Assembly: GCA_001797815.1 (NCBI GenBank)
Contig: MGQK01000001.1
Coordinates: 7,130-12,402 of the forward strand
Reading direction: 5' to 3'
DNA length: 5,273 bases
Source of the DNA: Deltaproteobacteria bacterium RBG_13_61_14
GTDB lineage: Bacteria > RBG-13-61-14
Made by a program: the position numbers and the translations under genes. Positions within the stretch are counted from its first letter, which is position 1. Each line of letters begins with the position of its first letter. This document shows, piece by piece, positions 1 to 5,273 of this stretch. The notes beneath the pieces are model-generated. The model was given only the letters and a program-made list of their open reading frames with translations, was not told the DNA's origin and ran no database searches.

Positions 1-367
1 GCACGTCCGGGTCCAGCCCGGCCTGCTCGTGCCCCGCGGCCAGCGCGGTGTTGATGTTGTTTTCCACCACCGTCTCCAGGTGATACTTATTCAGGCTGCC
101 CACGCCGGCCTGCTCAAAGGCCGCGTCAATCAGCTTGCCGATCTCCCGATTGGTTAGGCCCTCCTCGAGGCCCACGGCAATGGCCTCCTGCGCAGCCTCG
201 ATTAAATACTGCTGCTCCACCCCGGCAATGGTGAAAGCGGCTTTACCATAGAGGTCCTCGAGCGCGCGCCAGGCCTCCTCGGTCAGCGGCGTCAGCCCGC
301 GCAGATACGCAATGGCCTCCTCGGGAGGCAGCGGCGCCACGCCGGTATGGTAGTCCAGCTCGATCAT
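1..367 (-). CDS. Mu gp30/F-like phage head morphogenesis protein, N-terminal part (cut by window edge)
   Basis: This is a partial gene: 122 residues from the ATG at 367, still open at position 1. The protein begins MIELDYHTGVAPLPPEEAI. It shows the N-terminal layout of the Mu protein F / SPP1 gp7-type minor head proteins: PPEEAIAYLRG (14-24), TPLTEEAW (26-33), AAFTIAGVEQQ (43-53), a helix ending in GLEEGLTNREIGKLI (66-80), and HLETVVENNINTALAAG (96-112), which matches the family's 'ETV.r.N...A...G' segment. Family members are minor capsid or portal-proximal proteins needed for head assembly and sometimes carried in the virion. The start overlaps the stop of the 74-residue gene as ATGA (364-367). 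No good Shine-Dalgarno sits at the right distance (a GGAGG lies about 16 bases upstream), so coupled translation is likely. Its place downstream of the portal is the Mu gene order. Full-length members are several hundred residues, so most of the gene lies outside the window. Confidence 0.92.
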   Translation of the reverse strand, partial: MIELDYHTGVAPLPPEEAIAYLRGLTPLTEEAWRALEDLYGKAAFTIAGVEQQYLIEAAQEAIAVGLEEGLTNREIGKLIDAAFEQAGVGSLNKYHLETVVENNINTALAAGHEQAGLDPDV

Positions 368-588
368 TCAGTTCTCGGGGACGCCTCCGGTGGAGTCTCC
401 GGCTCGCCAAGCTGCTCCGCCAGGTCCTTGGCCTGCACCTTGAGAATCTTCCCCGCCACCTGGAGCGCTTTGCCCGTGGCGATGAGCCAATCGCCGGTCT
501 CCTTGACCCACGCAATCAGGACTTTCGCGTCCTTCTTCATGCCTTTAAGGGCCGCGGCCAATCCCTTTAATCCAGTCCATGTCGCCAT
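364..588 (-). CDS. 74-residue helical basic protein with acidic Pro-rich tail, function unknown
   Basis: I do not recognise this gene. Residues 1-60 are Lys-, Ala- and Leu-rich (about ten Lys) and should form amphipathic helices, for example GLKGLAAALKGMKKDAKVL and the segment LIAWVKETGDWLIATGKAL. Residues 61-74 switch to a short acidic, proline-containing tail (GEPETPPEASPRTE). No segment is long or hydrophobic enough for a clear membrane span, and there is no cysteine. The start is well supported: GGAGG at 596-600 lies 7 bases (all A) from the ATG at 588. The gene follows the 224-residue gene after 15 bases and overlaps the F-like gene by ATGA, so it belongs to the late operon. It could be a small virion or scaffold-associated protein, or a chaperone for the neighbouring F-like protein. 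These are guesses from position only. That it is a translated gene is fairly sure; its role is unknown. Confidence 0.8.
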   Translation of the reverse strand: MATWTGLKGLAAALKGMKKDAKVLIAWVKETGDWLIATGKALQVAGKILKVQAKDLAEQLGEPETPPEASPRTE

Positions 589-603: not shown

Positions 604-1278
604 TTATTGCAAGGCGTAAAATGCCTTGACGTCCAGAAACGCGGTGCAGCCGGTCAAGAGACCGCCAAAACCGGCCGTATTCCCATACAGCACCAGGTCT
701 CCAACCTCCGGCAGCACCGCGCCGGCCGGACTGTCCAGCGTGTCCGCATTAGAGATCGAGGCCACCTCGGTGAAGCTACGATTTGAATAGGCATAATCCA
801 GCTCAATTGTTGCGCCGGACTTGGGAGTCAGCAGCAGTCCGTTCTCGAACGGTTGCGCGCCGACATTGTACTCCGTGCTATTAGGAATCAATGTTTCAAG
901 TCCGACAATGTTGGCATAGGTATCCCCAAAACTTGTGATTACTCCGATGTCCAGATAGCAAGAACCAGAGAGCGCCATCCACCAAACATAAATGCTCTTG
1001 AGCAAAATCTCCGCAGTTTCGCCATGCGCCAGGTCCGCGGCCGCGGACTGGTCCACTAAAATCACCGCGAACGGCGTTTCGAGGGGGGTGGTCATGGCAT
1101 AATAGCGGCTCAGATACGGCGCGCCCGCGAGCGCCACCACCGGCGCCAACGAGCCGTCCCGCGCGTCTCTCCTCCGGGCCTGGGACCCGGCCGGGCCGAT
1201 CAGCTCGTCGCCGGCAAAAAGATACGCGCCAAACGCAGCCAAGATCATCATGGTCCAGATTACGATCCACCGCTTCAT
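604..1278 (-). CDS. 224-residue protein with N-terminal signal/anchor segment, function unknown
   Basis: I do not recognise this gene. It opens MKRWIVIWTMMILAAFGAYL, giving a short basic start (K2, R3), then an uninterrupted hydrophobic stretch at about 4-22, and a possible signal-peptidase I site near LFAG-DE (21-25). The product is therefore probably exported or membrane-anchored. A low-complexity basic patch (ARRRDARDG, 34-42) follows. The remainder is rich in Gly, Thr, Ser and aromatics, looks beta-stranded, and has two cysteines (C107 in SGSCYLDIG, C211 in LTGCTAFLD) that could form a disulfide. No lipobox cysteine follows the hydrophobic segment. GGAGG at 1286-1290 is 7 bases from the ATG at 1278, and the start overlaps the portal stop as ATGA (1275-1278), so this start is secure. 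Mu has no gene between the portal and F, so this is an insertion in the canonical order. It could be a minor virion protein, a membrane-targeted ejection factor, or a cargo (moron) gene. Confidence 0.85.
   Translation of the reverse strand: MKRWIVIWTMMILAAFGAYLFAGDELIGPAGSQARRRDARDGSLAPVVALAGAPYLSRYYAMTTPLETPFAVILVDQSAAADLAHGETAEILLKSIYVWWMALSGSCYLDIGVITSFGDTYANIVGLETLIPNSTEYNVGAQPFENGLLLTPKSGATIELDYAYSNRSFTEVASISNADTLDSPAGAVLPEVGDLVLYGNTAGFGGLLTGCTAFLDVKAFYALQ
1029..1051. repeat. GC-only-core palindrome with flanking arms inside the 224-residue gene
   Basis: Positions 1033-1048 are a perfect 16-base palindrome with a GCGGCCGC core. The flanking bases CCA (1029-1031) and TGG (1049-1051) also pair if the G at 1032 is bulged. 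It contains two adjacent CCGCGG sites. It encodes QSAAAD in the 224-residue protein, so it may be only a by-product of Ala codons. With no loop, it would form a cruciform or self-dimer rather than a classical hairpin, and no T-run follows, so it is not a terminator. Confidence 0.6.
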
Positions 1279-2810
1279 TTCTGTTCCTCCAATTTCTGTC
1301 GTTCAGCCACGCGGCCGGTCAGGTCCGCGGCCAGCATCCGGTTTTTAAGGGTCTGGGCCAGCTTGGCCCTGGCCCGCGCCAACCGCTCCTGATCCTCGCT
1401 GAGCACGGCCGCGCGCATCTCCGCATAGGCCTGGTCCACGTCCGCGGGCCTCCAGGGGCCCGCGCTCGCGGCCACTGACATGGGCAGACCCGGCAACGCC
1501 GCGGGCCGCTCCAGCACCGGCTCGCCCGGCTCCGGCTCCGGGAGATTGAACCGCTCATACACGTAACTCTGCGGAATCTTAGTCCCGGCCCCCACCAAAA
1601 TTTGCAGCATGTTGGCCATCTGCATCAGGTCTTCCGCCGGCTCAAAATGCAGCTTGAAGCGCGGATAGGCCTTTTGCGGGCCGAAATTAAAGATAATAAT
1701 CGGCCGCACCAGATCATAACTCAGGGTCTCCTGGAGGTTCATACAATCGGCCTCTAGATAATCCTGCCTGACGCTCGCGTGAACCTGGCCCTGGGCGCGG
1801 GTGCCTCCGCCCTCCGCGGGAGTTGAAGTGGTCAAGGTCTGGCCGGTGATGATGATGGTTATTTCCTCGTTGCATAAATTAATTAACCGGTCATAGACCT
1901 GCACTGACCCATATCTCTGGGCCTCCTGAAAGCTGATGTCCATGCCCTGCGGAATCACGCAGCCCATGTCCGTGGCCAGGGAAATGATGGCCTTGGTCAA
2001 GACCGCGATCTGCTCCGGGGTGGCCTCGTTGGGATATTTCCCGATGCGCAGCGGGAAGCCGTAGGCCTCCGCAAAGCTCACCCAGTCCTTCAAAGTCCAG
2101 GACTTGAAAAGATATAGCCACAACAGCTTGATGCCCAGGCCGGCGCGCAGCAGACTGCCCTGCCGGGTGACCGTGTGCAGGATGAATTTATGCTCCGGGA
2201 TCGGATCGCCCTCCAGGTCTTTGGCGTTGAAGATTTTGAGGTCCTCGTTTTTGTCCAGAATGAACTTGCGCGGGGGCCTGATCTCGATGCGCTCCACCAC
2301 GGCCTGACCGTCCCGAATGGCCCACAGCAGCTCGCCGATGGCCAGGCCCCGATACACCGCGTCATTCAGCTCGTTGAGCGTTTGATGAAAATGCGGAATC
2401 GAGGAGATCGCGTTCGCCGCGAACTTAACCTGCGCTTGTATCCCCGGGTCCTCCTCGTCCGCGCCCAGCGGCGGGAGCACGTCCCAAGCCAGGCCGGCCA
2501 CCGCGAGACAGCGCTGGAGCAGGCCCGCGCCGATGCGGCTGTCCAGGTCGTAGATATCGTCCAAGATGTCAAAGTATTCGGTGACCTGCCCGCGTTTTAA
2601 ATTGCGGATCACGCCCGCGACCTTGGCCGGCGTGAGCGCCGCGGCGGAATAGGAGCTCCAGCGATCCTGGAGCTTAATCGTGATCACCTCATAGGTCAGC
2701 GGCCGCGGCTTGCTCTCCCCCGCGGGCGCGGCGGACGCCGCGACGGCAGAAGCCGCGACGGCTGGGGCCGCCGCGGGCCGGCTGAAGATATTTTTGATCC
2801 GTTCCAGCAT
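1275..2810 (-). CDS. Phage portal protein, DUF935 family (Mu gp29-like)
   Basis: This is the portal, the dodecameric ring at one head vertex through which DNA is packaged and ejected. Its 511 residues match the usual length of Mu gp29-type portals (about 500). Recognisable family blocks are RGQVTEYFDILDDIYDLDSRIG (starts at 73), LNDAVYRGLAIGELLW (148-163), KDWVSFAEAYGFPLRIGKYP (241-260), CVIPQGMDISFQEA (284-297), ITGQTLTTSTPAEGGG (321-336) with the following RQDYLEAD (348-355), and RFKLHFEPAEDL (384-395). Residues 13-29 are an Ala/Pro/Ser linker with a duplicated AVAAS pentapeptide; the C-terminal tail from about 457 is charged and helical. The ATG at 2810 follows the upstream stop after only 2 bases. 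No Shine-Dalgarno is visible there, so reinitiation from the upstream gene is likely. The stop overlaps the next gene by ATGA. The reading frame is intact and no key block is missing. Confidence 0.97.
   Translation of the reverse strand: MLERIKNIFSRPAAAPAVAASAVAASAAPAGESKPRPLTYEVITIKLQDRWSSYSAAALTPAKVAGVIRNLKRGQVTEYFDILDDIYDLDSRIGAGLLQRCLAVAGLAWDVLPPLGADEEDPGIQAQVKFAANAISSIPHFHQTLNELNDAVYRGLAIGELLWAIRDGQAVVERIEIRPPRKFILDKNEDLKIFNAKDLEGDPIPEHKFILHTVTRQGSLLRAGLGIKLLWLYLFKSWTLKDWVSFAEAYGFPLRIGKYPNEATPEQIAVLTKAIISLATDMGCVIPQGMDISFQEAQRYGSVQVYDRLINLCNEEITIIITGQTLTTSTPAEGGGTRAQGQVHASVRQDYLEADCMNLQETLSYDLVRPIIIFNFGPQKAYPRFKLHFEPAEDLMQMANMLQILVGAGTKIPQSYVYERFNLPEPEPGEPVLERPAALPGLPMSVAASAGPWRPADVDQAYAEMRAAVLSEDQERLARARAKLAQTLKNRMLAADLTGRVAERQKLEEQK
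2737..2762 (-). repeat. Short direct repeat coding for AVAAS-AVAAS in the portal N-terminus
   Basis: The 11-mer GCCGCGACGGC occurs at 2737-2747 and again at 2752-2762, a 15-base period. It encodes two tandem AVAAS pentapeptides within the Ala-rich linker at about residues 17-26 of the portal protein. The frame-preserving period suggests a small slippage duplication in a flexible, non-essential linker. Confidence 0.7.
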
Positions 2811-2812
2811 TT

Positions 2813-3262
2813 TTATTTAACCGGGGTGATGGCCAGTTTTCCGGTAGAGCCGCTGACGGCCTGAACCACCGCGATAAAGTTATAGTCCGGGTTGATCTTC
2901 AGCCGGAGCCGCGGCGCAAACCAGGCCGCTGGCGGATTCAAGGCCTGCTGCCCGTCCATTACAAAATAATTAAAGCTCGACGCGCCGGGGGTCAGGTTAC
3001 TGGTCGAGCCGAATAAAATATAACAGCCGACGCTGGGGCTTAGATCGTAAATCCCGCCGGCCTCCAGCTCCGCCGCGTCCACGGCCGCGGCAATGTCCAG
3101 CAGCGTCGGCGCGCCCGCGGGGCCCAGCTCCGGGATGGGCCGGCCCAGCCGGTCCTCGGTCAGCTCGCCGTGACTGTAGTAGCTCTGAGTCAGGGCCGCC
3201 GCGGCAAATAACAAGATCACCACTCCGGCCAGGAATCCCGCGCGCACATTGTCATATTTCAT
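2813..3262 (-). CDS. 149-residue protein with N-terminal membrane segment and beta-rich C-terminal domain, function unknown
   Basis: I do not recognise this gene with certainty. It starts MKYDNVRAGFLAGVVILLFA, with a hydrophobic span at about 8-25 preceded by K2 and R7, fitting a signal peptide or N-in signal anchor. No lipobox is present. Residues 30-68 are a Pro/Ala/Leu linker. Residues 69-149 look like a small beta-sandwich: GGIYDLSPSVGCYILFGSTS (69-88), FNYFVMDG (97-104), PRLRLKI (117-123), YNFIAVVQAVSGSTGKLAITPV (from 127). The pattern 'G.Y......CYI..G ... F.V ... RL.....IAVV...G.L.IT' resembles small Gly-rich virion or decoration-type domains in tailed phages; that is an impression, not an assignment. 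The start is well supported by GAGGAG at 3269-3274, 6 bases from the ATG. The gene lies 14 bases after the large terminase and 2 bases before the portal, a place where Mu has no gene. A membrane-targeted protein is unexpected in this position. Confidence 0.85.
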   Translation of the reverse strand: MKYDNVRAGFLAGVVILLFAAAALTQSYYSHGELTEDRLGRPIPELGPAGAPTLLDIAAAVDAAELEAGGIYDLSPSVGCYILFGSTSNLTPGASSFNYFVMDGQQALNPPAAWFAPRLRLKINPDYNFIAVVQAVSGSTGKLAITPVK

Positions 3263-3276
3263 TCTATTCTCCTCGC

Positions 3277-4617
3277 TTACATATATTCGCGGAGCTCCGC
3301 GGACTTGCGCGGCTCTCCCACTCGCTGATAGGCCAGTTGGACCGGAGGCCGGTCTCCCGCGTGGAGCGCCAGCGCCAAGGCCCAGAACCGGTCGGCGTGA
3401 CCGTCCTCGTTGCGCTCCGAATCGAAACGGGTATTGCCCGCGGAGGTCACAAACTTTTTGACGCTGTGCAGGTCTTCCCTGATCTTGTTGTCAATTGGAA
3501 TCCGCACCTGCTTGTCCTCAAACCTCCGGCGGATGGTGGTGGCCAGATCTTCCTTGACCTTCGCGCTGAAGGTCACGGCCTCGGCCCGGGAGCCGAACTT
3601 TTTCACCGTCTCCTCCGCCAACTGCATCCCCAGGCCGGTGGCGTCCAGGCAGACCCGCACGGGGTTGAGCTTGACGATCTCCCCAAAAATCAGGTCCCGC
3701 TGCATCGAAAAGGGCGTGCGCTCCAGCTCCATCAGTCGGCGCGTCCAGAACACGTCTCCCAATTGCTCCACGGCCCAGAAGACCGTGAGGTCGCGCTTTC
3801 TGCCGATGTCTACGCCGGCATAGACCCGGCCGCCCTGAAGCGGTTTACCGTCCTCGGCCTCGTCCGACTCGGCCTCCCCAATCAGCTCGTAGGTCAGGAA
3901 CGCAGTGGCCTCGTCCAGGAACTTGCACAGATACTCCTGCTGCCAGGCCTCCTCGTCCGCCAGGCCCTCCCGCAGGTCCTCGAGGGTCTGCGGATTCCCG
4001 TCCTCGTCTTTCAACTCCAGGCCCTGGGCCACCGCGCCGATGATGTCTATAAAATGACGGCTGTACTTTTTATTGGCCGTGAACAGCTCGTAAAACTTAT
4101 TCTGCCTCCCCTTGGGCGTGGAGGTGATCCGAATCTTATAGCCCCGGGTCAGGCTGGGATAGATGGCGGTCCAGATTTGCCGGCTGTCCTTATGAATCGA
4201 GAACTCGTCCAAATAGACGTTAGCGGGATAGCCGCGCGCGGTGTCGGGATTGGCCGGGAGCCCGATGATCCGGGAGCCGTTGGGGAGCCGCAGCTCGAGC
4301 TGCAAATACTCTTTGTCGCCCTCGTCGGTCTCCACCTTAAAGCGGTCCTCAATCCAGTCCAGCAGCAGGTCTTGAGCCTGTAGATGCGTCTTGGCCTGGG
4401 CCATCAACTGCTTGCACTGACGCTCCCCGCGGGTCAGGTTGATCCAGGTCGAGCGCGGGCGCTCCCGGCAGTCAATGGTCTGCTCTAGGGTCGCGGCAAA
4501 GGTCTTCCCGCATTGCCGGGACCAGCAGCCGATCTTGAACCGGGAGGCGTCTTTAATCCAGGCCCGCTGATAATCATACAACGGGACTATCGGAGTAATG
4601 GTCCGCTCAGATTCCAT
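3277..4617 (-). CDS. terL: Phage terminase large subunit, Mu gp28-like (ATPase plus nuclease)
   Basis: This is the DNA-packaging motor: an ATPase that pumps DNA through the portal, and an RNase H-fold nuclease that cuts it. All expected motifs are visible in the 446 residues. In the ATPase half, CWSRQCGKTFAA (31-42) is the terminase-style Walker A with K38/T39, NVYLDEFS (133-140) is Walker B with D137 and catalytic E138, and ITSTPKGR (164-171) is the coupling motif. In the nuclease half, YAGVDIGRKRDLTV (266-279) carries D270, VCLDATGLG (322-330) carries D325, and GHADRFWALALA (406-417) carries D409. The protein is somewhat shorter than Mu gp28 (roughly 550 residues, from memory), but both domains are complete. 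The ATG at 4617 lies inside the end of the DUF3486 gene (11-base overlap), with a weak AGAGGA about 12 bases upstream, suggesting coupled synthesis of the two terminase subunits. No frameshift or missing catalytic residue was seen. Confidence 0.97.
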   Translation of the reverse strand: MESERTITPIVPLYDYQRAWIKDASRFKIGCWSRQCGKTFAATLEQTIDCRERPRSTWINLTRGERQCKQLMAQAKTHLQAQDLLLDWIEDRFKVETDEGDKEYLQLELRLPNGSRIIGLPANPDTARGYPANVYLDEFSIHKDSRQIWTAIYPSLTRGYKIRITSTPKGRQNKFYELFTANKKYSRHFIDIIGAVAQGLELKDEDGNPQTLEDLREGLADEEAWQQEYLCKFLDEATAFLTYELIGEAESDEAEDGKPLQGGRVYAGVDIGRKRDLTVFWAVEQLGDVFWTRRLMELERTPFSMQRDLIFGEIVKLNPVRVCLDATGLGMQLAEETVKKFGSRAEAVTFSAKVKEDLATTIRRRFEDKQVRIPIDNKIREDLHSVKKFVTSAGNTRFDSERNEDGHADRFWALALALHAGDRPPVQLAYQRVGEPRKSAELREYM

Positions 4618-5098
4618 ATTGCTCGCGAATCCTCTGCGCTACCTCTGCTTGGGTCATGGCCGGCTTCTGGTTGTCGCTCTCCGGCCGCGGCTCTGTGGCC
4701 GCGGCCCCGCGCTGCAGCTCTAGGAGCTTGGCCAGGTCCACCGGCCGAATTTTAACCGTGCCGTCCACAAGACCCAAGAGCGCGGTCTGCGTAACTACGT
4801 TAACCAGAGCCTGCAGGCCCTGGCCGTCCGGGGCCGCGGCGAACTCCGCGATCAGCCGCGTCGCGGTGTTGTTCAGCTCAAAGACCCTCCGCTCCCGTCT
4901 CACGGCCTGATAGTAATCCGAGATGGCCTCGTGGGAGAGGTACTGGCCCTGGAGCTTGGTCAGGCCCGCGGCCTGCTCCAGAGTCAACTCGCCGGAATCC
5001 AGGCCGTCAATAATTCTGTCCTGGAGCTCCAGGGGGAGCTGCAGGAAGAAAAATCTGGGCTTCCGGTCCCGGCTGAGAATTAACTCGCGGTGGTTCAT
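4607..5098 (-). CDS. DUF3486 / Mu gp27-like protein, probable terminase small subunit
   Basis: Proteins of this family sit directly upstream of the Mu-type large terminase and are taken to be its small, DNA-recognising partner. The 163 residues contain the family layout: LPLELQDRIIDGLDSGELTL (21-40), then a helix-turn-helix-like region with AAGLTKLQGQYLSHEAISDY (43-62), whose 'G..lS..ai..Y' core is characteristic. A helical segment with RRERRVFELN (67-76) and ALVNVVTQTALLGLVDG (97-113) comes next. A Pro/Glu-rich linker (about 131-148) precedes the C-terminal helix MTQAEVAQRIREQYGI (148-163), the kind of tail by which small subunits often contact the large one. The ATG at 5098 follows the stop of the 40-residue gene after 3 bases; AGGA lies about 10 bases upstream. 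The 3' end overlaps the large terminase start by 11 bases. The family match was made by eye from the motif pattern. The small-terminase role is the usual inference for the family. Confidence 0.87.
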   Translation of the reverse strand: MNHRELILSRDRKPRFFFLQLPLELQDRIIDGLDSGELTLEQAAGLTKLQGQYLSHEAISDYYQAVRRERRVFELNNTATRLIAEFAAAPDGQGLQALVNVVTQTALLGLVDGTVKIRPVDLAKLLELQRGAAATEPRPESDNQKPAMTQAEVAQRIREQYGI

Positions 5099-5273
5099 AA
5101 ATCAATTTTCCTGGAAGCCCTGCGCAATCGCGGACCGCAGCAGGTCCCGGGTCAGGCCCCGCCGGAGCAGGTGGAGGTTTTGATTCAATTTTCGATTGAC
5201 CCACCATCTTTTGATCGCGGACATCTGCGTCCTCCTTGAGGTTGAGGAGTTTGCCCAAGAGGCGCTGCTGCAG
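5007..5273 (-). CDS. Possible 3' part of an upstream gene (open at right edge), doubtful
   Basis: One minus-strand frame enters the window open at 5273 and reads LQQRLLGKLLNLKEDADVRD before running on, without a stop, to 5007. The first 16 or so codons (before about 5225) have mostly G/C third positions and look coding, so a late gene probably does reach the right edge. Beyond 5225 the same frame turns into Pro/Ala-rich sequence with poor codon positions. It also lies across the 40-residue gene and the first 30 codons of the DUF3486 gene, which is how a shadow frame looks. Either an upstream gene really ends in a long overlapping tail, or its true end is hidden by a sequence error or lies outside. 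The product is not recognised. Confidence 0.22.
   Translation of the reverse strand: MQQRLLGKLLNLKEDADVRDQKMVGQSKIESKPPPAPAGPDPGPAAVRDCAGLPGKLIYEPPRVNSQPGPEAQIFLPAAPPGAPGQNY
5102..5224 (-). CDS. 40-residue basic microprotein, function unknown
   Basis: This short gene starts MSAIKRWWVNRKLNQNLHLL and ends in a helical stretch with RRGLTRDLLRSAIAQGF. It has about eight Lys/Arg against two acidic residues, no cysteine and no membrane span. Three things support translation. A perfect AAGGAGGA Shine-Dalgarno (5230-5237) lies 5 bases from the ATG. The stop is 3 bases before the DUF3486 start, as elsewhere in this tight operon. Codon third positions in this frame are mostly G or C, like the neighbouring real genes, while the overlapping frames are not. 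The basic Trp-containing N-terminus and amphipathic helix could bind nucleic acid or a partner protein. It could also serve mainly as a leader peptide coupling translation into the terminase genes. I do not recognise a family. It is moderately certain to be a gene; function is unknown. Confidence 0.6.
   Translation of the reverse strand: MSAIKRWWVNRKLNQNLHLLRRGLTRDLLRSAIAQGFQEN
5230..5237 (-). promoter_or_regulatory. Strong Shine-Dalgarno of the 40-residue gene
   Basis: AAGGAGGA on the minus strand, fully complementary to the anti-Shine-Dalgarno core, lies 5 bases upstream of the ATG at 5224. It is the strongest ribosome site in the window and is the main reason for accepting the very short gene that follows. 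Confidence 0.7.

Follow-up and report, generated by a model that had tools for sequence, protein, structure and literature searches.

The reading frame at positions 604 to 1278 on the minus strand of the window is a genuine gene in the head operon of a Mu-like prophage, and its 224-residue product is most likely a late accessory protein sent to the inner membrane, with export predicted from its N-terminal leader. The window, that is, the whole stretch of 5,273 nucleotides analyzed here, covers bases 7130-12402 of a 12,402-base contig of Deltaproteobacteria bacterium RBG_13_61_14 (genome 4.7 Mb), whose phylum is represented by just three genomes in the genome set used. Tentatively, and with a cargo role weighed almost equally, we favor an accessory function, in the virion or in assembly, for a protein that would meet new heads at the membrane.

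Head module of the prophage

The features of the window are as follows.

2..367, minus strand: F-like minor head protein, cut at the window edge by an assembly gap (phrog_220, E=3.3e-12)
364..588, minus strand: small 74-aa protein (P0003) encoded between F and the 224-aa gene; its holin-like match is weak (phrog_526, E=0.036)
604..1278, minus strand: 224-aa leader-bearing orphan protein (P0001)
1213..1278, minus strand: codons 1-22 of the 224-aa gene, encoding a basic and then hydrophobic leader that is predicted to be a Sec signal or anchor
1275..2810, minus strand: Mu-type portal protein, with an ATGA overlap with the 224-aa gene (PF06074, E=3.6e-89; phrog_113)
1286..1290, minus strand: Shine-Dalgarno GGAGG of the 224-aa gene, 7 nt before its ATG, inside the portal gene
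2813..3262, minus strand: 149-aa leader-bearing orphan protein (P0002) between the large terminase and the portal (model pLDDT 42.7)
3277..4617, minus strand: large terminase subunit (PF03237, PF17289)
4607..5098, minus strand: small terminase subunit, Mu gp27-like (phrog_426, E=5e-5)

Read along the minus strand, the contig encodes the small terminase, the large terminase, the 149-aa protein, the portal, the 224-aa protein, the 74-aa protein, which is amphipathic, the F-like protein, protease I, a head protein of the phrog_1731 family and the gpT major capsid protein, followed by gp36, a gpG-like completion protein, gp37 and the tail tube. The portal (PF06074), the protease (PF10123) and gpT (PF10124) thus lie in one operon, which defines a Mu-like head module. 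No tail sheath gene was recognized ahead of the tube protein, in keeping with a siphovirus-type relative of Casadabanvirus. A search for a Mu transposase in the same genome gave no match, and the control of that search was likewise silent. The contig (locus L003) contains runs of N around 7098-7130, 5680-5740 and 5170-5205; an apparent fusion of F with the protease spans such a gap and is not to be taken as real.

The 224-aa gene and its leader

The ATGA overlap with the portal gene (positions 1278-1275) and the GGAGG at 7 nt before the start bear out the original prediction on both counts. The frame is closed by a stop 9 codons ahead of the start, and the later in-frame starts lack an equal Shine-Dalgarno sequence, with the sole exception of codon 196. 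The codon usage of the gene is module-like in frame (0.58, versus 0.36 and 0.34 out of frame), slightly below that of the portal and large terminase genes (0.71).

The N-terminus is basic and then hydrophobic, as had been noticed from the sequence: K2 and R3 are followed by an uncharged hydrophobic stretch at residues 5-22. It thus has all features by which we recognized Sec leaders, namely a basic N-region, an uncharged hydrophobic core of at least 13 residues and a start codon with a Shine-Dalgarno sequence. By a rule-based guess, peptidase could possibly cut between A22 and G23. A lenient leader threshold is reached by 12% of shuffles of the protein, so that a leader on a single protein counts for little by itself. 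At the rate seen in the other modules, the probability that a module of about ten genes has three of them would be about 0.002, a rough and post hoc figure. The two cysteines of the original prediction are C107 and C211, with no others in the protein; it is not a lipoprotein, as there is no lipobox and the first cysteine does not directly follow the hydrophobic core. In the AlphaFold2 model of the protein alone (pLDDT 34), the helix at residues 2-25 is the sole confident part, and the beta structure suggested in the original prediction is not confirmed by it; the 149-aa protein, modeled alone in the same way, reached the score listed above.

No match to the 224-aa protein was found in Pfam, PHROGs, NCBIfam, PADLOC or PDB, in 50,697 phage records (INPHARED, tblastn), in 192 whole genomes, or by blast in about 215 related loci gathered by portal, terminase and phrog_1731 searches. 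Single-sequence searches of IMG/VR and GTDB contigs, which depend on exact short peptides and therefore miss distant relatives, also gave no match. The 149-aa protein is likewise an orphan in the same kinds of searches, and the two are not recognizable paralogs, their similarity being no greater than chance. The profile comparison of the 224-aa protein with the core and the C-terminal beta domain of phrog_1731 stayed at the level of shuffled controls, and neither sequence nor profile matches place it in that family.

Genes beside the portal in related phages

Our survey of the slots flanking the portal took in non-redundant Mu-like modules, this one among them: 136 had a terminase and a portal, and 115 a portal and an F gene. 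They are usually empty or hold cargo, for instance DNA methyltransferases. Phages of the Mushu type carry such a gene between the large terminase and the portal (L024:5303-5968; also L029, L031, L035, L038 and L045), a different DNA methyltransferase occupies the portal-F slot in L212 and L213, and a cold-shock-like protein was also found in the portal-F slot among relatives. The portal-F interval of a metagenomic viral contig (L097:8548-9358) contains three very short membrane-type reading frames. A leader-bearing gene of at least 60 codons was found in either slot in our module only, among the 136 and 115 surveyed.

Two statements of the original prediction are upheld: the portal-F gap is geneless in the canonical Mu-like phages examined, and in this prophage the portal is indeed flanked on both sides by a leader-bearing gene. 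That the two genes are specific to this phage group is not supported, as no homolog of either protein was found. The suggestion that they are not random cargo is weakened, because in relatives the same slots are occupied by DNA methyltransferases and other small genes; insertion near the portal is evidently tolerated, and position alone speaks poorly for function.

Leaders on head proteins

In the same prophage, the head protein of the phrog_1731 family (L003:5069-5986, minus strand) bears a signal-type leader ahead of the canonical start, its N-terminus being MKKNKFLAAIMILAAASILLMAAATADRN. The family profile matches this protein from residue 26 only (E=9e-24), and the copies in other phages start with M(T/A)AL(T/S)xD(R/K), aligned to its M21; thus 20 residues have been added before the old start. 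The latter persists as an internal methionine with no Shine-Dalgarno sequence, and the extended start has one of its own.

Hydrophobic leaders are present in nine of 99 distinct phrog_1731 rows (our own and, on other Mu-like viral contigs, L046, L057, L063, L067, L088, L205, L206 and L218), the scored starts having a Shine-Dalgarno match of at least 5 bases upstream. An apparent leader on a further homolog (G074) resulted from a wrong start, the canonical start being the correct one. On the tree of the phrog_1731 core, the trait requires about eight changes, at least four of them forced by well-supported branches, given a short alignment and rough support; this scatter suggests that leaders came and went several times. 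The leaders of L057, L067 and L218 are homologous, and their codons differ least at second positions (12-13 of 41-44 codons, versus 21-27 at third positions), as expected if hydrophobicity is kept. In several of the related leaders, basic residues follow the hydrophobic stretch or the leader resembles a hairpin.

Hydrophobic extensions also occur on four of 119 gpT major capsid proteins (L095:9259-10296, L100:10881-11906, L110:10724-11728 and L221, about 2607-3614). The extension in L100 is MKKILILFTLVMIAALFGSIAFADPALAEP, and the part conserved with named phages begins at residue 45. An IMG/VR scan with the major capsid protein gave no match. No leaders were found on 163 portal, 132 F and 111 protease I proteins, and an apparent leader on the terminase of L087 was not confirmed by a profile-based check. 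In the cases seen, each phage has one leader-bearing shell protein. In the incomplete set of open-access literature that we searched, we found no description of tailed phages with signal-type leaders on their head proteins, which is not proof of novelty.

Proposed role and alternatives

We propose that the 224-aa product belongs to the late proteins of the head operon in a siphovirus-type Mu-like prophage, and that it would be made in step with the portal through coupled translation. The leader would take it to or through the inner membrane, probably via the Sec route, and the protein would either stay anchored or be cleaved near A22. It may then meet new heads, presumably at the membrane, and could become part of the virion. 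This accessory virion or assembly role is suggested by the leaders elsewhere: an undoubted head protein of the same prophage, of the phrog_1731 type, has gained a similar one, and in related phages, too, leaders of this sort are found repeatedly on shell proteins of the head. Against it stand the lack of a homolog, of a usable fold model and of a profile link to phrog_1731, the cargo in the portal-flanking slots of relatives, and a codon usage slightly below that of the portal and large terminase. Furthermore, an exported protein cannot easily be fitted into a cytoplasmic capsid.

Almost as probable is cargo (a moron), that is, a late exported envelope protein acting on the host surface or in the periplasm, for instance by blocking re-adsorption or superinfection, for which the head operon is mere location. 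Relatives do carry unrelated genes on both sides of the portal, the methyltransferases and the cold-shock-like protein among them, and the 224-aa protein is an orphan with slightly deviating codon usage. However, that usage still fits the module, and two leader-bearing orphans together with a leader on a true head protein are, by a rough estimate, unlikely to have met in one module as unrelated events. It is this leader pattern that tips the balance toward the accessory virion or assembly role.

It is unlikely that the leader is instead a cytoplasmic hydrophobic peptide for head targeting or scaffold binding, removed by the phage protease I. The Mu-like protease gene downstream would agree with this, as would the basic residues and hairpin look of several phrog_1731 leaders, which would hold the domain in the cytoplasm; yet the order in the 224-aa leader is plainly basic, hydrophobic, polar, and this phage has no known protease site. 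Least probable is the originally predicted functional pair, in which the 149-aa and 224-aa proteins would be membrane-anchored partners framing the portal. The leaders of both proteins and their positions on either side of the portal speak for it, and both genes are missing from the other modules; but neither has a homolog, their sequences are no more similar than chance, and the third leader-bearing protein in the module, the phrog_1731 one, takes the leader theme beyond two genes and makes any pair arbitrary.

A leader-bearing orphan coupled to the portal, together with a leader gained by an ordinary head protein, may be a sign that head components of some phages are taken to the cell membrane. 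We consider it rather unlikely, at present, that a scattered subset of Mu-like phages ties head assembly or decoration to the inner membrane via a leader on one shell protein (phrog_1731 or the major capsid protein), with our 224- and 149-residue proteins as further leader-bearing parts. The capsids of tailed phages are generally taken to form from proteins of the cytoplasm. If the leaders on shell proteins truly work, they would reveal, in phages that infect poorly known bacteria, a capsid assembly linked to the membrane; should they be idle, they would still be a reason to treat automatic signal-peptide calls on phage genes with caution.

Comparison with known phages

The order of terminase, Mu-type portal, F, protease I, phrog_1731 and gpT is common to this prophage and to Casadabanvirus MP29, Alteromonadaceae phage B23 and Klebsiella phage ST405-OXA48phi1.1. 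Unlike this prophage, these three have no gene in the terminase-portal or portal-F gaps, and their phrog_1731 proteins lack a leader. The phrog_1731 protein is a virion structural protein, named "capsid stabilizing protein" in the Klebsiella record; its member in our prophage bears a leader, and the 224-aa protein has no profile similarity to it. The related phage JBD30 has a minor capsid protein of its own, gp39 (PMC11445458). We do not equate gp39 with the phrog_1731 protein, because a PDB sequence search with the MP29 phrog_1731 protein gave no solved relative.

The head module of Faecalibacterium phage Mushu likewise has an extra gene between the large terminase and the portal, but there it encodes a DNA methyltransferase without a leader, whereas the 149-aa protein of this prophage is a leader-bearing orphan. 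In T4, membrane-attached prohead initiation is performed by the portal protein with the chaperone gp40, and no T4 shell protein is known to have a signal peptide. Head assembly that starts on the inner membrane is not without precedent, T4 being a known case (PMC9958956).
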